Positions 81-61,999 are shown, counted from the first letter of the stretch. The stretch is 64,000 nucleotides of DNA from an uncultured Actinomycetes bacterium (GCA_903885505.1 CAISIU010000101.1:1-64000); one strand, 5' to 3'. The notes: a model not told the origin generated them from the letters alone. Numbers and translations are program-made.

Positions 81-86
81 TACGCT
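81..86 (+). promoter_or_regulatory. -10 element (TACGCT), leaderless promoter of the YdeI-type gene
   Basis: TACGCT fits TANNNT and lies exactly 6 bases before the GTG at 93. There is no Shine-Dalgarno sequence, so the transcript probably begins at or next to the start codon. Confidence 0.55.
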
Positions 87-92
87 TCACCC

Positions 93-377
93 GTGGCAAA
101 TGAACTCCCGGGCGGTCCCGTCCATCCCCTTCCGCCCGATCTCCACGAGGGATTGCTGGCAAGTGACGTCGCTCACGCCGCCTGGCTGGACATCACTCCA
201 CTCGCTCGCAATGAGTTCATTTGCTGGGTGGAAGACGCCAAGCAGCCTGCCACTCGTGAACGACGTATCCGTCGCACCCGAGAAGAGCTAGAAGAGGGAA
301 TGCGCCGCCCCTGCTGTTGGCCCGGCTGTAAGCACCGCGAGCGCAACGGGAAATCGCCCCGCGAGTCACCTCGGTAG
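93..377 (+). CDS. YdeI/OmpD-associated family protein (short form)
   Basis: Small soluble protein of 94 residues. Residues 18-70 resemble the C-terminal helical domain of YdeI/OmpD-associated proteins, with the recognisable run ICWVEDAKQPATRERRI around residues 43-59. The family has been linked to stress and antimicrobial-peptide tolerance in other bacteria, but no biochemical role is established. The tail after residue 72 is Cys/Arg/Pro-rich and unlike the family core. The GTG start is chosen because a TANNNT hexamer sits 6 bases upstream. It could be a stand-alone domain of a longer ancestral protein. The family call is fairly sure and the function is unknown. Confidence 0.6.
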   Translation: MANELPGGPVHPLPPDLHEGLLASDVAHAAWLDITPLARNEFICWVEDAKQPATRERRIRRTREELEEGMRRPCCWPGCKHRERNGKSPRESPR

Positions 378-380
378 AGT
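375..380 (+). promoter_or_regulatory. -10 element (TAGAGT), leaderless promoter of the P-loop kinase gene
   Basis: TAGAGT ends 6 bases before the GTG at 387. This spacing favours GTG 387 over the ORF-track TTG at 381. Confidence 0.55.
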
Positions 381-386
381 TTGAAG

Positions 387-920
387 GTGGCAAACGGCGC
401 TCGCATCATCGTTATTGCCGGGCTGCCCGGCGCGGGGAAGAGCACTTTGAGCCGCCGCCTCGCTCAGCACGTCGATGTCGCCGCCCACGTCGAAGCCGAT
501 CGGCTGCAGGACCTCATCGTCTCCGGCGCGGTACACGGCGACGTCAACGGCATTAGTGACGAAGCGGCTCGCCAGATTCGTCTTCGTCTTCACCATGCCG
601 TGCTGCTCGCTCGCTCTTTTCGCGAGGCGGGCTTCACCGCCATCGTCGACGACATCATCACGGGGCCACGTTTTGACCATCTCCGCGATGAGCTCGGCGA
701 CACCCCTTTTTCTTTCGTCATGTTGTTACGCGATCTCGAGGTCATGAAGGAGTCGTGGCGGGCGATAGGTAGCCCCTTCGTCGACTCTTTCGATTGGATT
801 GACGATGAGATTCGCCATCACACCCCGCGAGTGGGCCTGTGGCTCGAGACCACTGGCCGCAGCGAAGATGAAACATTTGCTGAATTAGTGACGCGTCTCG
901 ATGAGGCGCGCGTTCAGTGA
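387..920 (+). CDS. AAA/P-loop kinase, chloramphenicol-phosphotransferase-like
   Basis: A 177-residue P-loop NTPase, probably a small-molecule phosphotransferase. The Walker A motif GLPGAGKST is at residues 12-20, and an aspartate-rich strand AIVDDI at 85-90 fits Walker B. The size and the short lid-like C-terminal half match the CPT/zeta-toxin-like kinases grouped as AAA_33 or CPT. The substrate cannot be read from the sequence. The start is moved from TTG 381 to GTG 387 on the leaderless-promoter spacing. The stop overlaps the GTG of the next gene (GTGA), so the two are probably cotranscribed and coupled. No antitoxin-like neighbour is present, which argues against a zeta toxin. Confidence 0.6.
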   Translation: MANGARIIVIAGLPGAGKSTLSRRLAQHVDVAAHVEADRLQDLIVSGAVHGDVNGISDEAARQIRLRLHHAVLLARSFREAGFTAIVDDIITGPRFDHLRDELGDTPFSFVMLLRDLEVMKESWRAIGSPFVDSFDWIDDEIRHHTPRVGLWLETTGRSEDETFAELVTRLDEARVQ

Positions 921-1471
921 CCATCAACTCGTCGCGTCGATGGCGTGTGGTCGCGCTCGCGATCATCATCGAGGCTCTCGTGGCGGTGGGGGTGATTTGG
1001 ATTATCCGACCCCATGACGCTGCACCCACGTTTGCCACCTTCCGCGCTCCAAGCACTGCCACCGGTGTCAGTTGGGCGACCGCCACCGTGACGAGCGGCC
1101 CGGCCCGTCATAACAGCGCGGTCTCGATGGTCGTGGTGAATGGCTCCGCTCACGCCATGGTGATCACCTCGATTTCTTCATCCGTCGCCGCGACGGGGAT
1201 GTTGCACGTGGATCGCAATCTCTGCGATCCTCACGAGGTGATGACCACGTTATCGACGATGGAAATTTCCGCACACCGGGGAGTCCATCTGGGCCTTCAC
1301 GGTGCGGGTGCGATGCTCATGAATGTGCAGTCGTCACTTCACCGAGGCGCGCACGTGACGCTCGTTGTCCGGTGGCTCGATGGCGCGGGCACGCGTCACG
1401 TATCGGAGGTGGACGCGACGGTTATCCCCGCCCCCGCCCACCTGCAGTACACCGCGCCTATGGCAATGTGA
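917..1471 (+). CDS. membrane-anchored PCuAC-like (DUF461) copper chaperone homologue
   Basis: A 184-residue protein with an N-terminal signal anchor (about residues 10-31) and an extracytoplasmic domain resembling PCu(A)C copper chaperones. The family-like part is the run from about residue 115 (MEISAHRGVHLGL) through GAGAMLMN (129-136) to HRGAHVTLVVRW. In the family, a His normally precedes the paired Met near this point (HxM motif), but here that position is Ala132. The Met residues remain, and His124 and His128 lie nearby. Copper binding is therefore uncertain. The GTG start overlaps the upstream stop. The 3' end overlaps the convergent hydrolase gene by 14 bases. Confidence 0.55.
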   Translation: MTINSSRRWRVVALAIIIEALVAVGVIWIIRPHDAAPTFATFRAPSTATGVSWATATVTSGPARHNSAVSMVVVNGSAHAMVITSISSSVAATGMLHVDRNLCDPHEVMTTLSTMEISAHRGVHLGLHGAGAMLMNVQSSLHRGAHVTLVVRWLDGAGTRHVSEVDATVIPAPAHLQYTAPMAM

Positions 1472-2144
1472 GAACAGTGTCGGCGATGAAGTGTGCCAAC
1501 TCTCGCGGCTTCGTGAATTGTGGCCAGTGGCCGGTCGGAAGTTCAATTACCGACACGTCCTCGATGATCTCGTCATCATTGTCCGACCACTCCCAGTACT
1601 GATCCGCGGTGAACTCGCAGGCAATCAGCGTGGCCGGGATGGCGAGCCGCGCGGCATTGGTGAGTGTCAGTGGTTCTCGAGCACAGCGAGCAGATTCGGG
1701 GTGCACCGACGACAACAAGAGCTCGGCCGCGTCGCCGACGAGGTCGCGAACATCGTCGGGGGTGAAGAAGTCAATACCCGGAAAAGGAATCTCCCCCTCC
1801 ACTTCTGGCAGTGAGTCATTAACGATGTGACCATTGGTCGGGGGAACAGTGTCCACCAACATCAGGTGACGAACGAGTTCGGGGCGCTGATCAGCAGCGC
1901 CATACGCAATATTGCCGCCCGCGGAGTGTCCCACGAGGACGGCGGGCTCACTCAATGCGTCCAGCCACTCGACCACGGCGTTGATTTGGTCAGTGAGTCC
2001 CACGTCACGGCGGTGAGGCCAATGGGCCCCGCGGCCCGGAAGGCCAATGGTGTCCGCCGTGATTCCATAGGTTGTCAGGATTTCCTGAACGGTCGCCCAC
2101 GAGTTGCCCGTCAGCCAAAAGCCAGGAATCAGGAGAATTCGCAC
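1458..2144 (-). CDS. alpha/beta-hydrolase fold protein
   Basis: A 228-residue single-domain alpha/beta hydrolase with no signal peptide. The N-terminal strand MRILLIPGFW carries the oxyanion-hole region. The nucleophile elbow is GHSAGG with Ser74, and a catalytic His is likely at 206 in TGHWPQFTKP. The size and short cap resemble salicylate-esterase or hydroxynitrile-lyase-like and other small esterases. The substrate is unknown. The GTG start is supported by TACAGT 6 bases upstream. The gene is monocistronic and convergent with the PCuAC-like gene. Confidence 0.75.
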   Translation of the reverse strand: MRILLIPGFWLTGNSWATVQEILTTYGITADTIGLPGRGAHWPHRRDVGLTDQINAVVEWLDALSEPAVLVGHSAGGNIAYGAADQRPELVRHLMLVDTVPPTNGHIVNDSLPEVEGEIPFPGIDFFTPDDVRDLVGDAAELLLSSVHPESARCAREPLTLTNAARLAIPATLIACEFTADQYWEWSDNDDEIIEDVSVIELPTGHWPQFTKPRELAHFIADTVLTLP

Positions 2145-2150
2145 AGTGGA

Positions 2151-2156
2151 ACTGTA
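2151..2156 (-). promoter_or_regulatory. -10 element (TACAGT), leaderless promoter of the hydrolase gene
   Basis: On the minus strand TACAGT lies 6 bases before the GTG at 2144, with no Shine-Dalgarno sequence between them. Confidence 0.55.
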
Positions 2157-2276
2157 GGGGATGGGGCCCTGATTCTTACGAGACTCTCATGTGCTCGACC
2201 GAGCTCTTCTTATGTGGCGATATCAAGATGATTCCCGTCGGGCAAGGTGCTCGATGCGTCAACGTAAGGAGAGTGG

Positions 2277-2732
2277 ATGAAGAATCCCTTGAAGCAAGTG
2301 ATCACCATCGCCGCCGTGGCCGCCGCCACGACCGGTGCGGGCGTCGCCCTGATGACGTCGGCCGGCGCCGCCTCCAAGGCGACCCCGCGACACTCGGCCA
2401 CGGCTCCGTATTCCAGCCGACCACATACGCCGCCCTCGGGACCGAAGGAAACTTCGCTCACTGGCACTGACCTCACGACGGCCACCGCCGCGGTGCAGGC
2501 GGCCCTGCCGAGCGGAGCGACCATCGTGCGCATCGAGTCCAACGCCCATGATTCGTACCCCTATGAGGCTCACGTAGTTCTCGCCGACGGCACTCGTGAG
2601 ATCGTGGAGCTGAACTCCACCTTCGAGGTCATCACGACCATCGCCGACCCGGGCCCCGGCCCGCGTGATGGTGGACCGGCCGATCACCAAGGTCCGCCAC
2701 CGGGCGGCCCGGAGGGTCGCGGCCACCACTAG
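2277..2732 (+). CDS. secreted PepSY-like protein with Gly/Pro/His-rich tail
   Basis: A 151-residue exported protein. Residues 1-32 form a signal peptide ending near AGA-AS. A PepSY-like alpha/beta unit covers about residues 62-122 (TTATAAVQAALPSGATIVRI, then YEAHVVLADGTREIVEL). PepSY domains are common in extracytoplasmic inhibitors or sensors of peptidases, but a partner cannot be named. The last 28 residues are Pro, Gly, Asp and His and end in RGHH, which suggests a flexible or metal-binding tail. The start is set by an AAGGAG sequence 5 bases before the ATG. Unlike its neighbours it has a conventional leader. Confidence 0.6.
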   Translation: MKNPLKQVITIAAVAAATTGAGVALMTSAGAASKATPRHSATAPYSSRPHTPPSGPKETSLTGTDLTTATAAVQAALPSGATIVRIESNAHDSYPYEAHVVLADGTREIVELNSTFEVITTIADPGPGPRDGGPADHQGPPPGGPEGRGHH

Positions 2733-2798
2733 AGGCCCCGTTGTTGCCACTCCCCCGCTGCGGTCCGGTGACCTCGGCGGGGGAGTGCTGCTGTCTCG

Positions 2799-2804
2799 TA
2801 GCCT
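2799..2804 (+). promoter_or_regulatory. -10 element (TAGCCT), leaderless promoter of the methyltransferase gene
   Basis: TAGCCT ends 6 bases before the ATG at 2811, and there is no Shine-Dalgarno sequence. Confidence 0.55.
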
Positions 2805-2810
2805 TCGATT

Positions 2811-3398
2811 ATGACGAGTGAGCACTGGGATTCGATGTATCGCGACAAGGGTCGCGTCAACGTCAGCTGGTTCGAAGAGCACCCCCAGCAATCACTCGAT
2901 CTCATCACTCGATTCGCGCCACCTACCGCGTCCGTCATTGATGTGGGCGGAGGTGCCTCCGACCTGGCGAGCGAGTTACTCGCCGCGAATTTCACCGACG
3001 TGACGGTGCTGGATCTCTCCAGCGAAGCCGTCGCTCACTACGCCGACTTAAAGGTGGCCACCGCCGTCGGCGACGTGCGGACCTGGCAACCCCCACGCAC
3101 CTATGACGTCTGGCACGACCGCGCAGTGGGGCATTTCATGACCTCGCCGGATGATCAACTCGGTTATCTGAGCACCTTGCGTGCCGCCATGGCTCCCTCC
3201 GGCATCGCCATCATCGAGGGCTTCGCCCCCGACGGGCCCGAGAGTTGTTCGGGATTGGCCGTGCGACGCGGATTTCCCACCTTGGCGTCGCAATTACTGA
3301 GTGACGAGTTCGACTGCCGAGCATCGGGTGGATTCATCCACGTGACCCCCTGGGGAGCCGAACAGGCTTTTGAATGGGTCGTTCTCGCGCGGGTCTAG
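2811..3398 (+). CDS. class I SAM-dependent methyltransferase
   Basis: A 195-residue soluble methyltransferase. The SAM-binding loop is VIDVGGGAS (residues 42-50), followed by an acidic strand end VLDLS. The N-terminus (HWDSMYRDKG...VSWFEEHP) matches small stand-alone methyltransferases close to the thiopurine/tellurite methyltransferase-like group. The acceptor substrate is unknown. The Rieske oxygenase gene begins 20 bases after the stop on the same strand, but that gene has its own promoter-like element, so a shared pathway is only a possibility. Confidence 0.7.
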   Translation: MTSEHWDSMYRDKGRVNVSWFEEHPQQSLDLITRFAPPTASVIDVGGGASDLASELLAANFTDVTVLDLSSEAVAHYADLKVATAVGDVRTWQPPRTYDVWHDRAVGHFMTSPDDQLGYLSTLRAAMAPSGIAIIEGFAPDGPESCSGLAVRRGFPTLASQLLSDEFDCRASGGFIHVTPWGAEQAFEWVVLARV

Positions 3399-3406
3399 TC
3401 CAGCGA

Positions 3407-3412
3407 TACGAT
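3407..3412 (+). promoter_or_regulatory. -10 element (TACGAT), leaderless promoter of the Rieske oxygenase gene
   Basis: TACGAT ends 6 bases before the GTG at 3419. It supports that start over the ORF-track start, which overlaps the preceding gene. Confidence 0.55.
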
Positions 3413-3418
3413 GCGCCG

Positions 3419-4435: not shown

Positions 4436-4440
4436 CAAAA

Positions 4441-4470
4441 ACCCGGTCACCGAAGTGACCGGGTTTTTTG
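4441..4470 (+). terminator. bidirectional intrinsic terminator
   Basis: A perfect 10-bp stem ACCCGGTCAC/GTGACCGGGT with loop CGAA, flanked by A-run and T-run. It lies between the converging Rieske and giant surface-protein genes and can serve both strands. Confidence 0.9.
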
Positions 4471-4482
4471 TAGTTGAGCTGA

Positions 4483-9123: not shown

Positions 9124-9131
9124 AGCCGTAC

Positions 9132-9137
9132 ATTGTA
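9132..9137 (-). promoter_or_regulatory. -10 element (TACAAT), leaderless promoter of the giant surface protein
   Basis: TACAAT on the minus strand lies 8 bases before the ATG at 9123, inside an AT-rich patch. No Shine-Dalgarno sequence is present. Confidence 0.55.
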
Positions 9138-9232
9138 AGAGAACTATTTTGCCGTCGTTATTCGCCTTTGAAAATAAAGGAGATTATGTCAATAATCCCT
9201 GATCAAAAGGGGTGGTTACCCAGAGGCGGAAA

Positions 9233-9679: not shown

Positions 9680-10273
9680 TTAACCGAAGAAGTAGTGGTC
9701 CACTATTTCCAGCATGAGATTATCCCAGGCCTCAGGATTGACCTCGCTACCAGGGATTTCAATGATGACGCGACCGGTAATCACGCTGAGATACCACGGT
9801 CCAATGGCCGCCGGATCGACGGTCTCGCGAATGAATCCTTTGGCCTTCACGTCGGTCCACAACTTTTCGGTGTCCGCGAACATTGAATTTTGTTCATCGG
9901 CGATGGCTCGCTGCAGGGCGGGCCGGGCGTATGCCGAACCGAGGACGTTCACGCGTGACCATCGCGCCTCGACGCGCGACGACGAGAAAACCTCCGTGAG
10001 AAAAGTCTTCAAATAGTTTCGGAGCTCGTCGCGACTCTGGCACGCGCGCACTTCCACCATGTGGCTCGCCATGAAGTCACGAGCGCTGCGGATGTAGCGC
10101 GCTGCTTGTGCCGCGGCAATGAGGCCGTCGCGATCGCCGTAGTAGTGGTACACCGCCGTCACGGCGAGTCCCGCATTTTGCGCGAGCTCGTTGACGCGCA
10201 CGGCCGCTTCGCCGCCCGATTCGATCATGTCGATCGCGGCGTTCAGAATTTTCTCGGCGCTCTCCTGGCTCAT
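9680..10273 (-). CDS. TetR-family transcriptional regulator
   Basis: A 197-residue regulator. The N-terminal helix-turn-helix spans about residues 8-55, with VRVNELAQNAGLAVTAVYHYYGDRDGL matching the TetR signature. The rest is a variable helical ligand domain. The upstream GNAT gene is divergent and the -10 elements of the two genes overlap, so binding here could control both directions. The VOC gene follows 15 bases downstream. The effector is unknown. Confidence 0.85.
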   Translation of the reverse strand: MSQESAEKILNAAIDMIESGGEAAVRVNELAQNAGLAVTAVYHYYGDRDGLIAAAQAARYIRSARDFMASHMVEVRACQSRDELRNYLKTFLTEVFSSSRVEARWSRVNVLGSAYARPALQRAIADEQNSMFADTEKLWTDVKAKGFIRETVDPAAIGPWYLSVITGRVIIEIPGSEVNPEAWDNLMLEIVDHYFFG

Positions 10274-10280
10274 GGGCGCC

Positions 10281-10286
10281 TACTCT
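10281..10286 (+). promoter_or_regulatory. -10 element (TACTCT) of the first GNAT gene, overlapping the opposing -10
   Basis: TACTCT ends 6 bases before the GTG at 10293. The same base pairs read on the other strand form TAGAGT for the TetR gene, offset by one base. Confidence 0.55.
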
Positions 10287-10287
10287 A
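10282..10287 (-). promoter_or_regulatory. -10 element (TAGAGT) of the TetR gene, overlapping the opposing -10
   Basis: TAGAGT on the minus strand lies 8 bases before the ATG at 10273 and overlaps the plus-strand element by five bases. Confidence 0.5.
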
Positions 10288-10292
10288 GAAGG

Positions 10293-10811
10293 GTGAATGG
10301 TAATGAGCCGCTAAACAAAGTTCGACAGGTTCACTACCGAGCTCTTTTACCTGATGATCACCTCATTTTCGCCTCCCTGCGCCAGGCCGCACTGACCGGT
10401 GAGCCCGATGCCTTCGGGGCCACGTGGGCCCTCGAGTCGCAGCGGTCTGAGGATGAATGGCGGGGATTCATCGCGAATCGGACGATTTTTGTGGCCTTTG
10501 ACGGTACCGAGGCGGTGGGTATCGCTGCCGGTGGTGATCGCGAGGCGCGGCCCGACGCTCGCGGGCTGTACTCCATGTGGGTGCACCCGTCGATGCGCGG
10601 TACCGGCGTGAGCGCTCGCCTCATCGCTCTGGTCGAGGACTGGGCGAGGACGTCGGGCGCAACCTATCTCGCGCTTGACGTGGTGACCCATCTCGAGCAT
10701 CCACGCGCCTTGTATCGACGATGTGGTTTCGTCGAAACGAGTCGCTTCTCGATGATGCAGCGTGACCCGTCGATCTCCCTCGTGGAAATGCAAAAGGACT
10801 TGAGATCGTGA
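10293..10811 (+). CDS. GNAT-family N-acetyltransferase
   Basis: A 172-residue acetyltransferase. The acetyl-CoA binding motif A is present in MWVHPSMRGTGVSARLIALVEDWA (RGTGVS loop), followed by a typical C-terminal ALYRRCGFVET motif. The substrate is unknown. The start is moved from 10191 to GTG 10293, because the longer ORF runs through the divergent TetR promoter and into the TetR gene. It overlaps the second GNAT gene by four bases (GTGA), so the two are one coupled unit. Confidence 0.8.
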   Translation: MNGNEPLNKVRQVHYRALLPDDHLIFASLRQAALTGEPDAFGATWALESQRSEDEWRGFIANRTIFVAFDGTEAVGIAAGGDREARPDARGLYSMWVHPSMRGTGVSARLIALVEDWARTSGATYLALDVVTHLEHPRALYRRCGFVETSRFSMMQRDPSISLVEMQKDLRS

Positions 10812-18143: not shown

Positions 18144-18149
18144 AGCCTA
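18144..18149 (-). promoter_or_regulatory. -10 element (TAGGCT), leaderless promoter of the glycosyltransferase gene
   Basis: TAGGCT on the minus strand ends 6 bases before the ATG at 18137, with no Shine-Dalgarno sequence. Confidence 0.55.
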
Positions 18150-20008: not shown

Positions 20009-20818
20009 TCAGGCTAGTTGGCGCTCGCCCTCCCGAGGGGAGCCCACGGCACCAGCCAGCACTTTGGACGCCGCCGTGAGGTCACGAATACCCGCGGCAA
20101 TGGTGATTTCGTCGCTATTGAGGGCCAGGGCCATGCCCGCCTGCGGCCAAATACCCACGATTCGTGCGGGTCCCGCCTCGCCACGTGCCGCCACGGTGGC
20201 CATCGCGAGGTCCGCTCGCAGTCCGGCGCCGGCCGTCGAAGAGGGCGCACCGCCACGCACCCGCACCATCACCGACCCGTCCTCGGTCAGCAGATCGCGG
20301 CGCGCGCGCCACGACGTGCGACAGGTGGGCAGGTCGAGATAGAGGTCAGACGACGCGGTGAATCGTGCGAGTGAACGCTCGGCGAGGTCGCAGATATCCG
20401 AGGCCCACGCGACCGCTTCAGCTGTGATGATGCCTTGAGCCACGGGTGACTGCTCGGCTATCCACCACGACAAGGTGCCGCGATTCGCCCAGCCGCGAGC
20501 GGCGAGCTCTAGGTGACGCCCCATTTCTGAGCGCACGGCGGCCGCGACGGTGCGCTGCCGGCCACTGATGACGAGACTGGCGGCCGCATTACCCAAGGTG
20601 CGGCGCGTCTTTCGCACCGACCAGACGAAGGGGGTCGGTGGGGTGCCGGCTTGTTCAATGGTCCACGCGTCGACGCGACGTGGGGTGGTGCCGTGGCGAC
20701 GGTGCGACTCGATGATGGCGGCGAAGCGCGCGTCATCGATCACGACGCCCTCGTGGGTGGGCTCACCGGTAGCGGCCATGAGCTCCGCAGTGTCGAGGCG
20801 ATACGAGATGAGGTTCAT
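20009..20818 (-). CDS. conserved-looking protein of unknown function
   Basis: A 269-residue soluble protein that I do not recognise. It has no signal peptide or membrane segment. It is rich in Arg and Ala, with a long helical N-terminal half and a strand-rich C-terminal third ([29 protein letters not shown]). That last part loosely recalls nuclease-like cores, but no catalytic signature can be fixed. Its ATG overlaps the stop of the upstream unknown gene (20815-20818), and typA follows after 7 bases, so the three are likely one operon. Confidence 0.6.
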
Positions 20819-21570: not shown

Positions 21571-21576
21571 TAGTCT
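21571..21576 (+). promoter_or_regulatory. -10 element (TAGTCT), leaderless promoter of the small protein-lhr unit
   Basis: TAGTCT ends 6 bases before the ATG at 21583. This spacing independently supports the 47-residue gene as real. Confidence 0.55.
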
Positions 21577-21582: not shown

Positions 21583-21726
21583 ATGTTCGCCGTCACCACC
21601 GCTTTCGCCATTGTTTTCGGGGTTTTCTGCGTGGCGATTGCTGTCTGGGCAGTTCTGACTGTTCGATGGGCGATTCGCCGTGATCGCGCCTCGCGCGTGT
21701 CACAGCCATCTGATGAACTGACCTGA
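21583..21726 (+). CDS. 47-residue single-pass membrane protein upstream of lhr
   Basis: Too short for the ORF track. It reads MFAVTTAFAIVFGVFCVAIAV onward and ends in SQPSDELT. Residues 4-28 form one membrane helix, followed by a positively charged stretch (RWAIRRDRASR) that predicts a cytoplasmic C-terminus. Its TGA overlaps the ATG of lhr (TGATG), so the two are translationally coupled. A TANNNT hexamer sits 6 bases before its ATG. No homologous family is recognised, and a link to Lhr function is suggested only by the coupling. Confidence 0.65.
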   Translation: MFAVTTAFAIVFGVFCVAIAVWAVLTVRWAIRRDRASRVSQPSDELT

Positions 21727-28159: not shown

Positions 28160-28165
28160 AGTGTA
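28160..28165 (-). promoter_or_regulatory. -10 element (TACACT) of the GH25-like gene
   Basis: TACACT on the minus strand lies 9 bases before the ATG at 28150. The spacing is longer than the common 6, so this call is weaker. Confidence 0.4.
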
Positions 28166-31449: not shown

Positions 31450-31455
31450 ACTCTA
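31450..31455 (-). promoter_or_regulatory. -10 element (TAGAGT), leaderless promoter of the S53 peptidase gene
   Basis: TAGAGT on the minus strand ends 6 bases before the ATG at 31443. The same hexamer precedes three other genes in the window. Confidence 0.55.
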
Positions 31456-31984: not shown

Positions 31985-31990
31985 ATCCTA
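31985..31990 (-). promoter_or_regulatory. -10 element (TAGGAT), leaderless promoter of the DUF4395 gene
   Basis: TAGGAT on the minus strand ends 6 bases before the ATG at 31978, within a short AT-rich gap. Confidence 0.55.
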
Positions 31991-32793: not shown

Positions 32794-32799
32794 ACTCTA
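32794..32799 (-). promoter_or_regulatory. -10 element (TAGAGT), leaderless promoter of the TSUP permease gene
   Basis: TAGAGT on the minus strand ends 6 bases before the ATG at 32787. Confidence 0.55.
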
Positions 32800-46964: not shown

Positions 46965-46970
46965 ACCCTA
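46965..46970 (-). promoter_or_regulatory. -10 element (TAGGGT), leaderless promoter of the BVMO gene
   Basis: TAGGGT on the minus strand ends 6 bases before the ATG at 46958. Confidence 0.55.
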
Positions 46971-46981: not shown

Positions 46982-46987
46982 TAGCGT
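46982..46987 (+). promoter_or_regulatory. -10 element (TAGCGT), leaderless promoter of the acyltransferase-MFS operon
   Basis: TAGCGT ends 6 bases before the GTG at 46994. The two divergent start codons are only 35 bases apart. Confidence 0.55.
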
Positions 46988-46993: not shown

Positions 46994-47638
46994 GTGTCTG
47001 TGCCGCCTCGCCTGCGACCCCTACTTGGTCGAATCATTCGTCGATGGCGCCGGCAGCTCAATGAGTGGGCGATTATTGGCTCCGACGACCGCGAAGCGGC
47101 CACTTTTGCGCACTTTGGTTTCGGGGCCGCCATCTTGGCGCCGCAGGGCGTGATGTACAACGAGAAGGACATTTCCATCGGCGAGGGCACGATGATTGGG
47201 CCCCAGGTCACCTTGACCGCGGGCATGGGTCCGGGCCAAGAGATGCTGTCAACGCCCGTCGTCACCCTTGGCAAGAAGTGCATCATTGGCCGTGGCTCGC
47301 ACATCATCGGTCACTGGAACATCACCTTGGGTGACGAAATCCAAACCGGCCCCTACGTCTACATCACTGACCAAAATCACGGCTACGAGGACCCCGACGC
47401 CGCCATTGGTTGGCAGGCCACCACCGAAAAGCCAGTGTTCATTGGGTCGGGAAGTTGGCTCGGCACCGGTGTGGTGATTTTGCCCGGCACGCACCTCGGA
47501 CGTAACACCGTGGTGGCGGCGGGAGCAGTGGTGAGTGGCACCTTCCCCGACCATGTCGTTCTCGGCGGCGTACCCGCGCGCATCTTGCGTCACTACAGCG
47601 CCGACCACGGCTGGCAGTCCGGGGCACCCGCCTCGTGA
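46994..47638 (+). CDS. left-handed beta-helix acyltransferase
   Basis: A 214-residue hexapeptide-repeat transferase. Repeats such as ISIGEGTMIGPQVTLTAG, IIGRGSHIIGHWNITLGDEIQTGP and ILPGTHLGRNTVVAAGAVVSG form the helix. The loop His in ITDQNHGYEDP is the probable catalytic residue. It should transfer an acetyl or other acyl group to a sugar or polyketide-like hydroxyl. It is not a close copy of the acyltransferase at 37 kb. The GTGA overlap with the MFS gene suggests modification and export of one compound, which is inference. Confidence 0.8.
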   Translation: MSVPPRLRPLLGRIIRRWRRQLNEWAIIGSDDREAATFAHFGFGAAILAPQGVMYNEKDISIGEGTMIGPQVTLTAGMGPGQEMLSTPVVTLGKKCIIGRGSHIIGHWNITLGDEIQTGPYVYITDQNHGYEDPDAAIGWQATTEKPVFIGSGSWLGTGVVILPGTHLGRNTVVAAGAVVSGTFPDHVVLGGVPARILRHYSADHGWQSGAPAS

Positions 47639-48861
47639 GTCGCTCCGCCCTTGACTTTCGTCCACTGCGCGAATCGCAGTCGTACCGGCGTCTCTACGCA
47701 TCGGGGTTTGTGACCTCCATCGGATCACAGGCCTCGGCCGTGGCCCTCGCGTGGCAGCTCAAGAATCTCACCCACTCCGCACTCGCTGTGGGTGCGCTGG
47801 GACTGGTCGAAGTGCTCCCACTGATTCTGGCCGGCCTCTATGGCGGCGTGGTGGCCGATCACTTCGACCGAAAGACCATCGTGGTCGCCACCGAAATCCT
47901 CATGTTGCTGATTTCGGCGGGCCTTGCCGTGAACGCCCTCGTGGCGCACCCCATGGCCTGGGTGATTTACGTCGGCGCGCCCCTCGCCATGGTGGGGGCG
48001 GCGCTGCAGAGCCCGAGTTTGGGGGCGCTCAGTCAGCAATATCTCACCCCCGAACTGCAGCGACCGGCGGCCAGCCTGCAGACCTTCATGCGAAGTGCGG
48101 TGTCGCTCATCGGTCCGGCCATTGGCGGACTGTTGGTGGTAAGTACGAACGCCGCGACGGTGTATCTCATCGACGTCGTGACCTTCCTGTGCTCTCTCGT
48201 TTTTCTCGTTCGCATTTCGTCCATGGGCCGCCAGCGCGACGAGGGTCGACCGACCTGGGCGGACTTTCGATTCGGAGCCAGCTACGCCTGGTCGCGTCCC
48301 GACATTCTGGGTAGTTACGTCGTGGACACCGCCGCGATGGTGTTCGCCTACCCCGTGTTGATGCTGCCCTTCGTGGCGGACACTTTTCATTCGCCATCGG
48401 CCTTGGCGCTGATGTATGCGGCAATGCCCGCCGGCGCACTGCTCGCCAGTCTGTCGTCGAATCTCTTTCGACACGTCACCCATTACGGCCGCGCCATCGT
48501 GGTGGCCGCGACGGCCTGGGGCCTCGGGATTGCCCTTTTCGGGGCCGTGCACCAATTGGCGATCGCCGTGGTGGGATTAGTGATTGCCGGTGGTGCCGAT
48601 GGCTACAGCGGGATCTACCGAATGTCGCTGTGGAACGAAACCATCCCGAATGATGTTCGCGGCCGCATGGGGGGCATCGAAGTTCTTAGCTATTCCGTCG
48701 GTCCGACCATGGGTCAATTCCGCGGTGGCTGGTCCATCTCGCGCTGGGGTGTGCGCACCGCCATGGCCGGCGGTGGTCTGGTCTCGGCGCTGCTCACGGG
48801 AGCGACGCCACTGGCCTTCCGGTCGCTGTGGAAGTTCGAATCCACGGTCACTAACTCCTAA
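47635..48861 (+). CDS. MFS transporter (EntS/MFS_3-like exporter)
   Basis: A 408-residue protein with about 12 membrane helices. The N-terminus (FRPLRESQSYRRLYASGFVTSIGSQASAVALAWQL) and the motif YGGVVADHFDRKTIVV place it with MFS_3/EntS-like exporters of siderophores or macrolides. The C-terminal half has RGRMGGIEVLSYSVGPTMGQFRGG, also typical of this group. The substrate is unknown. It overlaps the acyltransferase gene by four bases and is therefore coupled to it. Confidence 0.85.
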   Translation: MSRSALDFRPLRESQSYRRLYASGFVTSIGSQASAVALAWQLKNLTHSALAVGALGLVEVLPLILAGLYGGVVADHFDRKTIVVATEILMLLISAGLAVNALVAHPMAWVIYVGAPLAMVGAALQSPSLGALSQQYLTPELQRPAASLQTFMRSAVSLIGPAIGGLLVVSTNAATVYLIDVVTFLCSLVFLVRISSMGRQRDEGRPTWADFRFGASYAWSRPDILGSYVVDTAAMVFAYPVLMLPFVADTFHSPSALALMYAAMPAGALLASLSSNLFRHVTHYGRAIVVAATAWGLGIALFGAVHQLAIAVVGLVIAGGADGYSGIYRMSLWNETIPNDVRGRMGGIEVLSYSVGPTMGQFRGGWSISRWGVRTAMAGGGLVSALLTGATPLAFRSLWKFESTVTNS

Positions 48862-48864
48862 CCT
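48859..48864 (+). promoter_or_regulatory. -10 element (TAACCT), leaderless promoter of serB
   Basis: TAACCT ends 6 bases before the ATG at 48871. It overlaps the TAA stop of the preceding MFS gene. Confidence 0.5.
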
Positions 48865-48870: not shown

Positions 48871-50055
48871 ATGGCTGAGACCGCACTACTCGTCACCGTG
48901 AGTGGACCCGACCGTCCCGGTATCGCGACGGCCGTGTTTGGTGCGCTCGCCGAATTCGAACCCAGCCTCGCCATTACTGATGTCGGCCAGGTGACCATCC
49001 ACGGTCATCTCGTGCTCTGTGTCGAAGTCACCATCGACAGTGCTACGGCGCCGGAAGTATTGCGCCGCCGAATTCTCGACCGGGGAGTCGGCGACGACAA
49101 CGTCTCGGTCACCGTGACGCACGTCTCGGGTGAGGACACCTTGGCCGACCGCACCAAGCGCCTCATGGTGACCTTGGTGGCCCCCGCGATTTCCAGTGAC
49201 GCGCTCAGCGAAGTCTTCGCCGCGATGGCGCGAAGTGGCGCGACGTGTGAACGCATTGTTCACCTCGCGAGCTACCCGGTCGATTGCTACGAACTCGTGG
49301 TGCGCACCATGCGACGCCAGGAACTGCGCGAAGAGCTCACCCGCGTCGCCCTGGCCGCGGGACTTGACGTGGCGGTGCAGCGTGCTGGGCTTCACCGTCG
49401 CGCCAAGCACCTGGTCGTCGTCGATGCGGACTCGACCTTGCTGCAAGAAGAAGTGATTGACCTCCTGGCCGCGAAAGCCGGCGTGGCGGAACAGGTCAGC
49501 GACATCACGCACCGCGCCATGATCGGCGAGTTGGGATTCGGCGAGGCACTGCGCGAACGCGTGGCACTTCTCAAGGGTCTTCCCGAGAGCATCTTTGATG
49601 AGGTGCGCCGCGAAGTCACCTTGACGCCCGGAGCCCAGACTTTCTTGCGTACCTTGAAGCGCCTCGGTTACGTGACCGCGGTGGTCTCGGGCGGCTTTGA
49701 AGAAATTCTGGCGCCGCTCGTCGCGGAGCTGGGCGTTGATCATTTGGCCGCGAACAGCCTGGTTGTGCGCGACGGCTTTCTCACCGGCGAGGTGGCCTCG
49801 GCCGCGGTCGACCGTGAAGGCAAGGCCGCGGCTCTCGAGCGCTTGGCGCGTGAGGTGGGTGTCCCGCTTGAGCAGACGGTGGCCATTGGCGACGGCGCCA
49901 ATGACATTGACATGTTGGCCCTGGCGGGCCTGGGGATTGCCTTTAACGCCAAGGCGGTGGTGCGCGAGCACGCGGACGCCACTTTGAACGTCCCCTACCT
50001 CGACGCCGCCCTTAATTTCATGGGTATCAGCCGCGACGAAATCGACGCCGGTTAG
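48871..50055 (+). CDS. serB: phosphoserine phosphatase with N-terminal ACT domains
   Basis: A 394-residue enzyme for the last step of serine synthesis. Two ACT-like regulatory domains cover about residues 5-85 and 95-172 (LLVTVSGPDRPGIATAVFGAL at the start). The HAD phosphatase follows, with the catalytic D-x-D-x-T motif at 185-189 (VDADSTL), the Thr/Ser motif VVSGGFEE, the Lys in REGKAAAL and the metal motif GDGANDIDML. This architecture matches mycobacterial SerB2-type enzymes, whose ACT domains respond to serine. It carries its own leaderless promoter. Confidence 0.95.
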   Translation: MAETALLVTVSGPDRPGIATAVFGALAEFEPSLAITDVGQVTIHGHLVLCVEVTIDSATAPEVLRRRILDRGVGDDNVSVTVTHVSGEDTLADRTKRLMVTLVAPAISSDALSEVFAAMARSGATCERIVHLASYPVDCYELVVRTMRRQELREELTRVALAAGLDVAVQRAGLHRRAKHLVVVDADSTLLQEEVIDLLAAKAGVAEQVSDITHRAMIGELGFGEALRERVALLKGLPESIFDEVRREVTLTPGAQTFLRTLKRLGYVTAVVSGGFEEILAPLVAELGVDHLAANSLVVRDGFLTGEVASAAVDREGKAAALERLAREVGVPLEQTVAIGDGANDIDMLALAGLGIAFNAKAVVREHADATLNVPYLDAALNFMGISRDEIDAG

Positions 50056-53017: not shown

Positions 53018-53024
53018 AGGTGAC

Positions 53025-53030
53025 ACGATA
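53025..53030 (-). promoter_or_regulatory. -10 element (TATCGT), leaderless promoter of pepP
   Basis: TATCGT on the minus strand ends 7 bases before the ATG at 53017. Confidence 0.5.
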
Positions 53031-53066
53031 GTGACTCGTGAAACGGCCTTGAAGCCGAGCGCGCTC

Positions 53067-53072
53067 TAACCT
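53067..53072 (+). promoter_or_regulatory. -10 element (TAACCT), leaderless promoter of the first hydratase gene
   Basis: TAACCT ends 7 bases before the ATG at 53080 and is the same hexamer as in front of serB. Confidence 0.5.
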
Positions 53073-53079
53073 TCTACGC

Positions 53080-53736: not shown

Positions 53737-53742
53737 CGCGCC

Positions 53743-54294
53743 ATGGCTCGTTCTCGTCACGACCGCGGCGACCACGTCGCCGAGGACGCATTTCGAGCCT
53801 TTGCCATCACGATGGCACCGACCCTCGCCGGATACTTTCGTCGACGCCTGTACCCACTCTCGGCTGCCGACGTTGACGAGCTCGTCAATGACACCTTGTT
53901 AGTGATTTGGCGTCGGTGGTCAGACGTGCCGGCCGGTGCTGAGGTTCCCTGGTCGCTCGGCGTCGCCCGACACATCTTGGGAAATGCCCGCCGCGGCAAT
54001 CGCCGCCGGGTGGCCATGGAAAGTCGTCTCGCCCCCGATCCGAATGGCCTGGCGGCCGAGGACATCGTGGTGGCCGACGTGGCTCTCTCCGAAGCTCTGG
54101 CTGCCGTGTCGGAGGGGGACCGAGAGATCATCGTCTTATCGGCGTGGGATGGCCTGTCCATTGCGGAGTTGGCTGTCCATTTCGACATTTCGGAGAATGC
54201 CGCCACCGTTCGTCTGAGTCGAGCCCACACTCGGCTGCAAGAAATTCTCGAATCTGCTGAAAGAAGTGGCGATCACCGGACAGGAGAACAGTGA
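53743..54294 (+). CDS. ECF-type RNA polymerase sigma factor
   Basis: A 183-residue sigma factor. Region 2 is at about residues 20-85 (ADVDELVNDTLLVIWRRW for core binding and -10 recognition). Region 4 is at about 115-170 with the helix-turn-helix SIAELAVHFDISENAATVRLSRA. There is no extended C-terminal domain. Its stop overlaps the ATG of a membrane protein, the usual arrangement for a sigma/anti-sigma pair. It has no obvious leaderless element and starts 6 bases after hydratase copy A. Confidence 0.88.
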   Translation: MARSRHDRGDHVAEDAFRAFAITMAPTLAGYFRRRLYPLSAADVDELVNDTLLVIWRRWSDVPAGAEVPWSLGVARHILGNARRGNRRRVAMESRLAPDPNGLAAEDIVVADVALSEALAAVSEGDREIIVLSAWDGLSIAELAVHFDISENAATVRLSRAHTRLQEILESAERSGDHRTGEQ

Positions 54295-55535: not shown

Positions 55536-55551
55536 GTTTCCCGAGGTCACC

Positions 55552-55557
55552 TAGTCT
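55552..55557 (+). promoter_or_regulatory. -10 element (TAGTCT), leaderless promoter of the second hydratase gene
   Basis: TAGTCT ends 7 bases before the ATG at 55565. Confidence 0.5.
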
Positions 55558-55564
55558 CGAGGCC

Positions 55565-56221: not shown

Positions 56222-56230
56222 GGAGTCAAT

Positions 56231-56269
56231 AAAAAACCCCCGCCGGCCTTGCGGCCGGCGGGGGTTTTT
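56231..56269 (+). terminator. bidirectional intrinsic terminator
   Basis: A long stem AAAAACCCCCGCCGGCC/GGCCGGCGGGGGTTTTT with loop TTGC between the convergent hydratase B and livJ genes. A and T runs on both sides let it serve both strands. Confidence 0.93.
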
Positions 56270-56280
56270 AGTTACTGCGA

Positions 56281-57648: not shown

Positions 57649-57748
57649 TGCCCATTTTCCTTTCGTGTGGGGATTTCCCCAGCCCTCACACTAATAAGAG
57701 TTGGCGACACGAAGGTAAGCGGCAACGCCGCGAGCCCACGGTCAGGAG

Positions 57749-58810
57749 TTACCGACGAGTAACCGAAATGAGTTTCTGGCGCAGGCCGGTGGCGAGGCCC
57801 ACGATGCCGCGGGGGGCGAAAATCATGGTGACGATGAGCAAGATCCCAAAGAGGATGTTCTCCATGTTGGGAGCCAAGTTCGGCAGCTTGGCGCTGACCC
57901 ATGAATCAGGACCAAGTCCGGTGTGATCGGTGATCCAGGTCGTGATTTGCAGTGAGTACACGCCGAGTAAGGCGGCGATGATGGCGCCACTCAGCGAACC
58001 GATGCCACCGAGAACCATGAGGGTCAACAGCGCGATCGAGAAGGTAAATCCAAATTCGTAGGTGCTGGGTGAAGCAGTGCCTGACACCATGACGAGCAGA
58101 GCTCCCGCCAATCCGCTCAAGGCGGCGGTGAGGACGAACGCCTGAGCGCGAGTGCGACCCAGGTGAAGCCCGACGAGCTCGGCCGCCACATCGTTGTCGC
58201 GAACGAGGCGCATGGCCCGACCCGTCTTACTCGTGAAGAGGTTGGACATCAGCCACAGCACGAGTGCCGCAATGACGACCGACACCATCGCCGTGAAGCG
58301 ACTGTTGATGACCACGGGCAACGTGTTGTTCGTGTCAAAAAGGTTGAAGAACCATTGCGGCGCGCTGAGCGGCGTGATGGTGAGACCCTGCGATCCGCCC
58401 AAGGTGCTCACGGCAAACGACTGGGGAACGTAGGGAAGGGCGACCGCGAAGGCCAAGGTCATGCCCGCGAGGTACGGGCCGCGAAGGCGGGTGGCCGGCA
58501 TGCCGATGATGAGTCCGACAAACGCAGAGACCGCGATCGCCACGATCATAGAAATGGCGACGGGTTCGCCGGGGTGATGCAGCGTCCAAAACGCGGCGCT
58601 GTAACCACCTACCAACATGAAGCCCGAGTTGCCGATGGAGATTTGTCCGCTCCATCCGGTGAGGAACGAGAGCCCCACCAACGCGATGCAGTAGGCACCG
58701 GCCTTCGTAAGGTTGGCGGCATCGGTACCCGACTGAATAGAGGCGACGGCGATCGCCGCCACGAGGCCACCGAGGACCCACGCCAGACGCTTGAACGTAC
58801 CGGACATCAC
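57749..58810 (-). CDS. livM: branched-chain amino-acid ABC transporter permease (LivM type)
   Basis: A 353-residue permease with about ten membrane helices. The conserved segments YCIALVGLSFLTGWSGQISIGNSGFMLVGGYSAA and MRLVRDNDVAAELVGLHLGRTRAQAFVLTAALSGLAGAL are typical of LivM. It pairs with LivH to form the translocation channel. Its ATG overlaps the livH stop by four bases, so translation is coupled. Confidence 0.92.
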   Translation of the reverse strand: MMSGTFKRLAWVLGGLVAAIAVASIQSGTDAANLTKAGAYCIALVGLSFLTGWSGQISIGNSGFMLVGGYSAAFWTLHHPGEPVAISMIVAIAVSAFVGLIIGMPATRLRGPYLAGMTLAFAVALPYVPQSFAVSTLGGSQGLTITPLSAPQWFFNLFDTNNTLPVVINSRFTAMVSVVIAALVLWLMSNLFTSKTGRAMRLVRDNDVAAELVGLHLGRTRAQAFVLTAALSGLAGALLVMVSGTASPSTYEFGFTFSIALLTLMVLGGIGSLSGAIIAALLGVYSLQITTWITDHTGLGPDSWVSAKLPNLAPNMENILFGILLIVTMIFAPRGIVGLATGLRQKLISVTRR

Positions 58811-59706
58811 ACCCTCCGAGTCGAGTTCTTGGTGAAGATGCCCTGGGGGCGAAGCATCAACACGACAACCAACAGCACGACCGCCACCATGTCGGCGTAA
58901 TTTGAATTCCAGTAGTCATTGATGAGCTGCATGACGACGCCGATGACGATTCCAGAAACCAGGGCTCCAAGGGGGCTGTCGAGGCCACCAATGGCCGCGG
59001 CGATAAAGCCGAGAATGAACATCGCGTCGAGCATGTTGGGGGCGAGGCCACCGGGGTTGAGCGAAATAACCACACCGGCCACCGCACCCACTGCTCCGGC
59101 AATTCCCCATCCAAGTGTGAGAAGTCGACCTACGCGAATCCCCAACAACTTGGAGACTTCGGGGGCCAGCGCGGAGGCTCGCAATTTGAGACCCAGCGAG
59201 GTGTAGTTAAAGAGAATGGCGACGAGCGTCATGATGGCTAACGCTGCTCCGATTTGAAAAGTGGAGAGTGGACTAAGGCCCGTGGGGTTCCCCTCTGATT
59301 GAAAGTTGATGCTGGAAAATGGAGCCGTGGGGTAGCGAGGGATGTTGGTCCACACGGCGCTCGCCACTGCCTCGAGCAACGTGAACATACCGACCATCAC
59401 CACGATGGGATTGATTTCCGCCTTGTGATAGAGCGGCTTTACGATCACGATTTCCGTGAGGGCCGAGAAAATGAAGCCCACGGCGACCGAGATCGCGGCG
59501 GCCACCCAGAAGTTCGCGTGGTGGTCCATTTGGGTCATGCCGATGTAGGTGACGAACATGGCCATGGGGCCCTGCGCGAAGTTTAAGACACGCGTGGCGC
59601 GCCAGACCAGCACGAGACAGAGGGCGACCAGTCCGATGATGACACCTTGAGCGGTGCCACCGGCAATGTCGTTGACGATGCGGTTGGTCAGGATGTTGGC
59701 AATCAT
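58807..59706 (-). CDS. livH: branched-chain amino-acid ABC transporter permease (LivH type)
   Basis: A 299-residue permease with about eight membrane helices. The LivH features are GLVALCLVLVWRATRVLNFAQGPMAMF near the N-terminus and LGIRVGRLLTLGWGIAGAVGAVAGV in the ATPase-contact region. It forms a heterodimer with LivM. It overlaps livF upstream and livM downstream by four bases each. Confidence 0.92.
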   Translation of the reverse strand: MIANILTNRIVNDIAGGTAQGVIIGLVALCLVLVWRATRVLNFAQGPMAMFVTYIGMTQMDHHANFWVAAAISVAVGFIFSALTEIVIVKPLYHKAEINPIVVMVGMFTLLEAVASAVWTNIPRYPTAPFSSINFQSEGNPTGLSPLSTFQIGAALAIMTLVAILFNYTSLGLKLRASALAPEVSKLLGIRVGRLLTLGWGIAGAVGAVAGVVISLNPGGLAPNMLDAMFILGFIAAAIGGLDSPLGALVSGIVIGVVMQLINDYWNSNYADMVAVVLLVVVLMLRPQGIFTKNSTRRV

Positions 59707-60410
59707 TCGGCCATCCCCAAGTAGTACGAGCGCAGCGACTCATCGGCGGCCACCTCGGCCGCGGGTCGCACCGCAATGGATTTGCCGACGTGCAACACGG
59801 CGGCGTAGTCGGAAATCTTGAGCGCGCTCTTCGCGTTCTGCTCCACCAAAATCACCGTCAGGCCAGAGTTGGCACACAGCGTCTTGATCGTGTTCATGAT
59901 GTCTTGAGTCACCAGTGGCGCGAGGCCGAGCGACGGCTCGTCAAGCAACAAAATCTGCGGGTTCGCGATCATGGCGCGGCCGAGAGCCAACATCTGACGT
60001 TCACCACCCGACAGCTGTGCGGCGTACTGCTTGCGACGTTCCTTGAGAACGGGGAACAAGGTGTACTGCTCCTCGAGCCCCGCGGTCACGTTGGTCTTGG
60101 CCCCCAGCGCACCGAGGCGGAGGTTTTCCTCCACCGTGAATTCAGCAATCACTCCTCGTCCTTCAGGAACGTGAGCAATACCGAGGCGAGCAATGGTGTC
60201 GGGACGTTCGCCGATGAGGGCGTGTCCATTGGCAGTAATGCTGCCGGAACGAGGCTTAACGAGACCACTGATGGTGCGCAGCAAGGTGGTCTTGCCGGCA
60301 CCGTTGGCTCCGAGGACGGCGGTGATGGCACCTGTCGGTGCCTCAATGCTGACGTCATCGAGCGCCACGATGGCGCCGTAGGCGACGGAGAGGTGAGAGA
60401 TGGAGATCAT
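59703..60410 (-). CDS. livF: branched-chain amino-acid ABC transporter ATPase (LivF type)
   Basis: A 235-residue ABC ATPase. Walker A is GANGAGKTT, the signature is LSGGERQMLALGRAM and Walker B is ILLLDEPSLGLAP, all typical of LivF. It powers transport together with LivG. It overlaps livG upstream and livH downstream by four bases (ATGA). Confidence 0.93.
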   Translation of the reverse strand: MISISHLSVAYGAIVALDDVSIEAPTGAITAVLGANGAGKTTLLRTISGLVKPRSGSITANGHALIGERPDTIARLGIAHVPEGRGVIAEFTVEENLRLGALGAKTNVTAGLEEQYTLFPVLKERRKQYAAQLSGGERQMLALGRAMIANPQILLLDEPSLGLAPLVTQDIMNTIKTLCANSGLTVILVEQNAKSALKISDYAAVLHVGKSIAVRPAAEVAADESLRSYYLGMAE

Positions 60411-61186
60411 TCGTCGACTCCCAGGTAGGCCTCAATCACGGCGGGGTTCTGACGTACCTCGGACGGCGTGCCGGTCGCAATGACTTTGCCGAAGCTGAGC
60501 ACGACCAGGCGGTCCACCAGCGGCATGACGAAGTCCATGTTGTGCTCGACGAGCAGCACGCCCATCTCGCTGCGCAGGCCGCGAATCAGTTCAGCAAAGG
60601 CATCGAGCTCAGCCTCGTCGAGGCCGGAGGCCGGTTCGTCCAGAAGAAGTAGTGACGGGCGCGCAATCAGGGCACGCGCCACGGCCACGCGCTTGGCAAT
60701 GCCGTAGGGAATGGCCGTGGGCATTTGGGCGGCGTAGTCCGCGACGCCCAGGCGGTCGAGGACGGAGAGGGCTTCGGCCTTCAGTTCTTTTTGTCCGTGC
60801 GGCAGACCCAGCAGTGAGGTCCAGAAGCGACCCCCGGGGCGACTCTGCGCGCCCGCCATCACGTTTTCCAACACCGTGCAGTTCTCGAAGAGCCCAACGC
60901 CCTGCAAGGTGCGTGCCACGCCGGCGCGAGCGAGTTGACTCGGCTGAGGGTTGGTGAGACCAGATTTGGGAAGACGCACCGATCCCTCGGTGGGCTCGAC
61001 GAAACCGCAGGCCACGTTGAACGCGGTGGTCTTGCCGGCACCGTTCGGACCAATGAGGCCCACAATCTCTCCGGGGTTGACCGAAAAGCTGACGTCAGTC
61101 AGTGCGGCGAGACCGCCGAAACGGACGGAAATGGCATCGAGCTCCAAAAGAGTGCTCGATGTCGTGGCGACGGGGGTAGACGACAT
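60407..61186 (-). CDS. livG: branched-chain amino-acid ABC transporter ATPase (LivG type)
   Basis: A 259-residue ABC ATPase, first gene of the liv operon. Walker A is GPNGAGKTT and Walker B is LLLLDEPASGLDEAE. The signature position reads IPYGIAKRVAVARAL, the relaxed form usual in LivG proteins. The start is taken at ATG 61186, with GGAAAG upstream, rather than the ORF-track TTG at 61198. A TAATTT hexamer 10 bases before it could be the -10. The gene is divergent from the membrane-protein operon. Confidence 0.92.
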   Translation of the reverse strand: MSSTPVATTSSTLLELDAISVRFGGLAALTDVSFSVNPGEIVGLIGPNGAGKTTAFNVACGFVEPTEGSVRLPKSGLTNPQPSQLARAGVARTLQGVGLFENCTVLENVMAGAQSRPGGRFWTSLLGLPHGQKELKAEALSVLDRLGVADYAAQMPTAIPYGIAKRVAVARALIARPSLLLLDEPASGLDEAELDAFAELIRGLRSEMGVLLVEHNMDFVMPLVDRLVVLSFGKVIATGTPSEVRQNPAVIEAYLGVDE

Positions 61187-61250
61187 AACTCTTTCCAAAT
61201 TAGTCGGCGCGCACTCGCTCGATTAACCCCGTCCCCCGAGGAGAGGTGAC

Positions 61251-61261
61251 GTAACCGTTAC
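61251..61261 (+). promoter_or_regulatory. palindrome GTAACCGTTAC overlapping the -10 of the membrane-protein operon
   Basis: A perfect 5-base-arm inverted repeat overlaps the first three bases of the -10 hexamer at 61259 and is an operator candidate. It lies in the liv divergent region, so it might affect both directions. Confidence 0.35.
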
Positions 61262-61264
61262 ATT
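61259..61264 (+). promoter_or_regulatory. -10 element (TACATT), leaderless promoter of the membrane-protein operon
   Basis: TACATT ends 6 bases before the ATG at 61271, and no Shine-Dalgarno sequence lies between. Confidence 0.55.
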
Positions 61265-61270
61265 GGTCGC

Positions 61271-61999
61271 ATGTTGGCCACCACCACCGCGTTTCCCTAC
61301 GCGCTGGTCGTGGCCGTTTTTCTCGCCGCCCTTGTGGAGATGGTGGAAGCCCTCACCATCGTGGTGGCGGTGGGTCACGCGCGGTCGTGGCGATCAGCCC
61401 TCGAGGGAACGGGTCTCGCTCTTCTATGCCTCACCATCCTCGTGGCGATCGTGGGTCCGGCTATCAGTCACGTGCCCTTGACGCCGATGCGCGTCATTGT
61501 CGGCGCCATTTTGCTCGTCTTTGGCTTGCAGTGGCTGCGCAAGGCTGTTCTTCGAGCATCGGGTCATAAGGCCCTTCACGACGAAGATGAGATTTATCGC
61601 GACACCGTGGCGCAGCTGCGTGCGGCTGGTCAACCCGTGGGCCGCGATCGCCTCGCGGTGGTGACGAGTTTCAAGGGAGTCTTCCTCGAGGGGCTTGAAG
61701 TCGTCATCATGGTGGTCACCTTGGGGGCGCAGCGACACCAGATCTTGATTGCTACGGCCTCGGCCGTGTCGGCCACGGTGCTCGTTGCCATCGTCGGTGC
61801 CATCGTGGCGAAGCAACTCAACAACGTGCCCGAGAATTTCATGAAGGCCACCGTGGGCGTGCTACTCGTCACGTACGGCGTCTTTTGGTCCGGTGAAGGC
61901 GTCGGGGTGGTGTGGCCGCACGGCGACGTGATGTTGCTGGCCATTGCCGGTCTCGTGGCCGCGGGCGTCTGGGTCCAGATACAGGTGGCGCGCCGATGA
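61271..61999 (+). CDS. COG4280-like membrane protein with FTR1-like repeated acidic motifs
   Basis: A 242-residue protein with about seven membrane helices. Two halves each contain an acidic helix motif: ALVEMVEALTIVVAVG near residue 25 and VFLEGLEVVIMVVTLG in the middle. The second resembles the R-E-x-x-E helices of FTR1 iron permeases, and the first is a variant. The overall pattern matches the COG4280 group of predicted membrane proteins and hints at a cation transporter. The substrate is unknown. Its stop overlaps the ATG of the next gene (ATGA). Confidence 0.6.
   Translation: MLATTTAFPYALVVAVFLAALVEMVEALTIVVAVGHARSWRSALEGTGLALLCLTILVAIVGPAISHVPLTPMRVIVGAILLVFGLQWLRKAVLRASGHKALHDEDEIYRDTVAQLRAAGQPVGRDRLAVVTSFKGVFLEGLEVVIMVVTLGAQRHQILIATASAVSATVLVAIVGAIVAKQLNNVPENFMKATVGVLLVTYGVFWSGEGVGVVWPHGDVMLLAIAGLVAAGVWVQIQVARR

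Follow-up and report, generated by a model that had tools for sequence, protein, structure and literature searches.

Why do so many start codons in one stretch of DNA from an uncultured actinobacterium follow, at a nearly constant distance, a hexamer of the form TANNNT? The stretch, hereafter the window, is the 64,000-nucleotide contig C101 (GCA_903885505.1, CAISIU010000101.1:1–64000) of a 1.66-Mb, 165-contig assembly that is 94.6% complete and belongs to an Acidimicrobiales genus. The nearest relatives of its TypA protein lie in Acidimicrobiales/Acidimicrobiaceae metagenome genomes, and at the DNA level its best relative (L002) shares 87% identity across 7.9 kb. We propose that the TANNNT boxes are the −10 promoter elements of leaderless mRNAs, which would account for between roughly one quarter and one third of the genes, and we give this reading a probability of roughly 0.94.

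TANNNT boxes in the window

We define the gap as the number of bases between the end of TANNNT and the ATG or GTG start codon. Two sets of starts were used. Motif-blind starts come from a gene finder that ignores upstream motifs, which called 55 genes in the window; refined starts were reassigned by a mixture model with three classes, namely leaderless, Shine–Dalgarno (SD)-led (AGGAGG) and neither. With refined starts, 20 of the 55 called genes carry TANNNT at gap 6–9, and two genes missed by the caller (starts 93 and 21583) bring the number to 22, the same total as in a first-pass annotation made from the sequence. If only motif-blind starts are counted, the figure is 17 of 55, and shuffling the upstream sequences of the called genes gives a mean of 1.7 boxed genes with a maximum of 7 in 2000 shuffles. 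Gene 93 matches Pfam OmdA (PF13376, E 2.5e-17), while 21583 encodes a 47-amino-acid protein conserved in related genomes, the L002 copy having its box at gap 6.

At all 15 gap-6 starts in that annotation, TANNNT ends exactly six bases before the codon. Nine lie on the plus strand and six (2144, 18137, 31443, 31978, 32787 and 46958) on the minus strand, which the annotation had left unstated; 13 are start sites in the gene models, nine of these also being the motif-blind start. The annotation had divided the remaining boxes into four, two and one at gaps 7, 8 and 9, and this division is corrected here to three (53017, 53080, 55565), two (9123, 10273) and two (20001, 28150), with start 10273 weakly supported (posterior 0.57). 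The putative −10 boxes are as follows.

81..86, plus strand: TACGCT, gap 6 to GTG 93, 94-amino-acid OmdA/YdeI-like protein
375..380, plus strand: TAGAGT, gap 6 to GTG 387, P-loop kinase-like; TAG is the stop of gene 93–377
2151..2156, minus strand: TACAGT, gap 6 to GTG 2144, alpha/beta hydrolase
2799..2804, plus strand: TAGCCT, gap 6 to ATG 2811
3407..3412, plus strand: TACGAT, gap 6 to GTG 3419
9132..9137, minus strand: TACAAT, gap 8 to ATG 9123
10281..10287, both strands: TACTCTA, two overlapping boxes in a 19-bp divergent gap; TACTCT on the plus strand, gap 6 to GTG 10293; TAGAGT on the minus strand, gap 8 to ATG 10273 (weakly supported)
18144..18149, minus strand: TAGGCT, gap 6 to ATG 18137
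20011..20016, minus strand: TAGCCT, gap 9 to ATG 20001, TypA
21571..21576, plus strand: TAGTCT, gap 6 to ATG 21583, conserved 47-amino-acid small membrane protein
28160..28165, minus strand: TACACT, gap 9 to ATG 28150
31450..31455, minus strand: TAGAGT, gap 6 to ATG 31443
31985..31990, minus strand: TAGGAT, gap 6 to ATG 31978, DUF4395
32794..32799, minus strand: TAGAGT, gap 6 to ATG 32787, TauE family
46965..46970, minus strand: TAGGGT, gap 6 to ATG 46958, flavin monooxygenase-like; 11 bp from the back-to-back box 46982..46987
46982..46987, plus strand: TAGCGT, gap 6 to GTG 46994, hexapeptide-repeat transferase
48859..48864, plus strand: TAACCT, gap 6 to ATG 48871, SerB; TAA is the stop of gene 47635–48861
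53025..53030, minus strand: TATCGT, gap 7 to ATG 53017
53067..53072, plus strand: TAACCT, gap 7 to ATG 53080
55552..55557, plus strand: TAGTCT, gap 7 to ATG 55565
61259..61264, plus strand: TACATT, gap 6 to ATG 61271, OFeT_1 iron-permease-like

Spacing profile across the genome

Per-gene statistics were collected from 572 kb of the 1.66-Mb assembly. Shuffled upstream sequences, internal in-frame ATG/GTG codons and E. coli K-12 processed identically served as controls, and a 75%-GC relative (G020) was excluded for poor gene calling. Among motif-blind starts, TANNNT stands at gap 6 in 14.7%, gap 7 in 5.1%, gap 8 in 2.7% and gap 9 in 1.8%, and is near background at gaps of 5 or less and of 10 or more. 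Before internal in-frame ATG/GTG codons, it occurs at gap 6 in about 0.05%, and the E. coli K-12 profile is flat, with no peak. The chance rate of roughly 1% per offset assumed in the first-pass annotation was slightly high, the shuffles giving about 0.8%. The box consensus is TA[G>C,A]NNT. Gap 6 accounts for the majority of leaderless genes (about 58%, with 24%, 8% and 8% at gaps 7, 8 and 9), so that the gap described earlier as uniform is somewhat less so.

The mixture model places 34–35% of genes in the leaderless class, 49–53% in the SD-led class (AGGAGG) and 13–17% in neither; the first of these fractions should be taken as an upper value, given that in E. coli the model likewise places 47% of genes in a TANNNT class. 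Confident leaderless calls number 126 of 484 genes (about 26%). As a rule for finding start sites, the box performs well without being absolute: among 169 in-frame ATG/GTG codons with TANNNT at gap 6–9 in the open reading frames of this genome, 109 coincide with the motif-blind start, a further 39 are no more than 90 bases away from it, and the other 21 are found farther into the frame. The rule is a practical aid for correcting gene starts in such metagenome genomes.

Shine–Dalgarno sequences, gene context and the −35 region

An SD core precedes 7% of leaderless genes, in line with the 8% of the internal control and with the earlier remark that boxed genes lack one, and it precedes 62% of SD-led genes. 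The anti-SD sequence CCTCC is intact at the 3' end of the 16S gene (L001, near 510), which fits an SD-led class coexisting with a leaderless one. Confident leaderless starts belong to 58 of 136 divergent genes versus 5 of 98 genes that overlap a same-strand predecessor (Fisher p = 1e-11). Immediately before the start codon, gap-6 genes carry a pyrimidine in 84% of cases and a purine in 16%, the corresponding figures for SD-led genes being 62% and 38%. The gap-7 genes of this genome have a purine at −1 in 26% and at −2 in 29%, and those with gap 8 or 9 lack purines at −2.

When 292 promoters of the genus were aligned on the box, TTGACA-like −35 matches at spacers 16–18 numbered 11, 13 and 9, similar to the numbers at other spacers. 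Counted in this way before SD-led genes, such matches peak at spacers 17–18 (14 and 12, with roughly 5 elsewhere), so the method is able to detect a −35 element where one is present. A hidden −35 element with a different consensus was also considered and rejected, a free hexamer motif search in the 292 promoters finding nothing better than in control ranges.

Conservation in relatives

The SerB box (start 48871) is present at all 16 same-genus loci that span the start, our own included, 15 of them having gap 6 and the other gap 7; the three central bases vary freely and the flanks have diverged. Upstream of gene 46994, TA[G/A/T]CGT stands at gap 6 or 7 in 30 of 30 same-genus loci (own included), and the TypA box keeps its gap of 9 in L002–L007. 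Among reciprocal best hits to two samples of the genus, leaderless–leaderless pairs number 29 (16 expected) and 14 (8 expected).

Proposed leaderless transcription and its alternatives

We propose that TANNNT acts as a sigma-70-type −10 element from which, at gaps 6–7, polymerase would start on the first base of ATG or GTG. Were the gap shorter than 6, transcription would begin within the codon, which would account for the hard lower edge at gap 6; at gaps 8–9, the start would leave a leader of zero to three bases. Such mRNAs would be translated by ribosome binding to the 5'-terminal AUG or GUG without an SD sequence. Across the genus, the promoters show no detectable −35 element. Between about 26% (confident calls) and 34% (mixture) of genes would be expressed in this way, and about half would use AGGAGG-type leaders. 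The distance peak with its hard edge, the absence of SD sequences, the preference for divergent starts, the pyrimidine–purine start and the conservation among orthologs all support this proposal.

Several points weigh against it. Transcription starting at the codon and the mode of translation are deduced from the sequence, and the gene-by-gene analysis covers roughly one third of the assembly. A whole-genome count of the pattern yields 180 occurrences versus 114 for a reversed-pattern control, an excess that is modest because the scan is not tied to genes. The mixture model puts 47% of E. coli genes in a diffuse TANNNT class although no peak exists there, and we regard its E. coli fractions as meaningless and use only the flat profile from that species. 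Finally, a mixed set of other members of the genus does not show the purine pattern of gap-7 genes (0.50/0.56).

The alternative that survives best is that many of these promoters yield very short leaders of 1–5 nucleotides and not strictly leaderless mRNA. About 40% of boxes stand at gaps 7–9, and the gap-9 promoter of TypA often reads GTC-ATG, where the start position usual at gap 6 would fall on the G three bases before ATG. Most boxes, however, stand at gap 6, where transcription would normally begin on the codon itself, and the absence of a purine at −2 in the gap-8 and gap-9 genes of this genome likewise speaks against short leaders. We consider this alternative unlikely as a general account, while a leader of 1–3 nucleotides at gaps 8–9 is possible.

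Considerably less probable is that TANNNT is a non-SD translation-initiation element on leadered mRNA. The box replaces the SD sequence at the same genes, and the profile by itself cannot separate DNA from RNA signals; however, the box has the −10 consensus and a discriminator of fitting length, is followed by a pyrimidine–purine initiator, and is concentrated at divergent starts and not inside operons. In M. tuberculosis and D. radiodurans, the promoter role of this signal has been demonstrated (PMC3898074, PMC12340547). Chance, or an artifact of choosing boxed starts aided by upstream TAA/TAG stops, could draw on the ambiguity of starts in GC-rich DNA and on the 9 of 58 same-strand boxes that really are the upstream stop, but it is refuted by the motif-blind profile, with its peak before gene starts and none before internal ATG/GTG, by the box being commonest at divergent genes, which have no upstream stop, and by its retention in orthologs.

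Stop codons within putative −10 boxes

Some same-strand boxes coincide with the stop codon of the upstream gene. When neighbors are 9 bp apart, the upstream stop supplies the first three bases of a gap-6 box (TARNNT-N6-RTG), and this distance is the commonest same-strand spacing in the range 3–24. Motif-blind starts from three samples, all of a single genus, give TAA or TAG as the stop in 20 of 21 neighbors exactly 9 bp apart. The bases after such a stop complete TARNNT in 14 of 20 cases at distance 9, compared with 6 of 74 when the neighbors are 3 to 24 bp apart but not 9 (Fisher p = 6e-8). Within the window, the pattern occurs at 48871 and, by inspection, at 387. The Rhodococcus plasmid pRHL1, taken as a comparator, has three leaderless genes, too few for a stop-codon comparison, and the remaining actinobacterial samples were likewise too small for one, so that the pattern is described here for the one genus.

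A published parallel is the overlap of a stop codon with the SD sequence of the next gene (PMC2784483). There, as here, the stop doubles as an expression signal for the next gene and biases stop choice and spacing; unlike there, the stop would double here as a promoter −10 box and not as a ribosome-binding site. A full-text literature search turned up no account of the promoter version, which is weak evidence for novelty. The association is statistically strong and appears less familiar than the rest of the pattern. We see an even chance that tandem genes of this compact genus evolve stop-fused leaderless promoters while divergent genes share back-to-back, −10-only pairs in 19–40 bp. If so, promoter function would partly dictate stop-codon choice and spacing, and leaderless transcription would allow genes to be packed tightly with separate promoters kept.

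Divergent gene pairs

In the genome sample, 13 of 68 divergent pairs are confidently leaderless on both sides, and in 6 of these 13 the start codons are just 34–40 bp apart. Among the latter is the window pair 46958/46994, with 35 bp between its start codons. In the pair 10273/10293 (10271–10295), the gap is 19 bp and TACTCTA forms overlapping boxes in both directions, the minus-strand call being the weaker. A constant box-to-box spacing of one turn (10–13 bp), suggested by six pairs of this genome, was not seen in relatives; the ortholog gap of 46958/46994 varies from 35 to 59 bp, and we therefore claim no fixed geometry. Symmetric bidirectional promoters are a known type (PMC12825309, PMC10268837); back-to-back leaderless promoters in divergent gaps of 19–40 bp look less familiar than the main pattern.

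The base A directly after the box is rare (18 of 293 leaderless boxes of the genus, from this genome, L177–L196 and L217–L236), and the symmetric form TANNNTA is uncommon, which may reflect a discriminator preference or avoidance of antisense initiation. At another divergent locus (L085:2502–2543), genes that we name thiD-like and thiG-like from reading their protein sequences only are separated by 36 bp, and the region is an inverted repeat whose 17-bp arms take in both GTG starts and both boxes; orthologous upstream sequences in a relative do not look palindromic.

Neighboring genes

The gene for the 47-amino-acid membrane protein (21583–21726) is followed directly by a large helicase-like gene, which has its start at 21726. 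Just 3' of the gap-7 leaderless gene 53080, positions 53743–54294 match sigma-70 region 4 with 27 bits and possibly encode a sigma factor of the extracytoplasmic function type. In the search for the housekeeping sigma factor, the sigma-factor genes (L270, L271) matched RpoD_Cterm with scores under the cut-off, and one of these genes sits close to the end of its contig.

Comparison with known systems

The pattern is ordinary for the phylum: it is the known actinobacterial leaderless promoter in a new lineage. That leaderless mRNA is well known, as the first-pass annotation stated, is borne out by Zheng et al. 2011 (PMC3160421), who described such TA-led genes, in this exact form, in Actinobacteria and Deinococcus-Thermus. 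Shared with their description are a TANNNT with its first T some 12 bp ahead of the start codon, a share above 20% of genes, SD-led genes alongside, and loose middle bases at high GC. The name stem Acidimicrobi- is not mentioned in the text of that paper, whereas the present case is an uncultured Acidimicrobiales genus, for which our literature search found no report of leaderless promoters. Leaderless genes are also modeled by the gene finder GeneMarkS-2 (as described in PMC9581028).

In M. tuberculosis, Cortes et al. 2013 (PMC3898074) mapped 5' ends and found 22–26% of genes to be leaderless, with no −35 motif. The TANNNT −10 element, the lack of a −35 element and a purine start preceded by a pyrimidine are common to both systems; the leaderless proportion here appears as high or higher, as judged from sequence and not from mapped ends. 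Cortes et al. reported that no genes for ribosomal proteins or elongation factors were leaderless (PMC3898074), whereas the translation GTPase TypA carries the box in the present genome. Genes with a −10 motif in Deinococcus-Thermus, mostly without a −35 element and tested by mutation (PMC12340547), likewise have TANNNT adjoining the open reading frame at a specific spacing, in a different phylum. The comparative evidence presented here extends the leaderless-promoter rule to an uncultured Acidimicrobiales genus.

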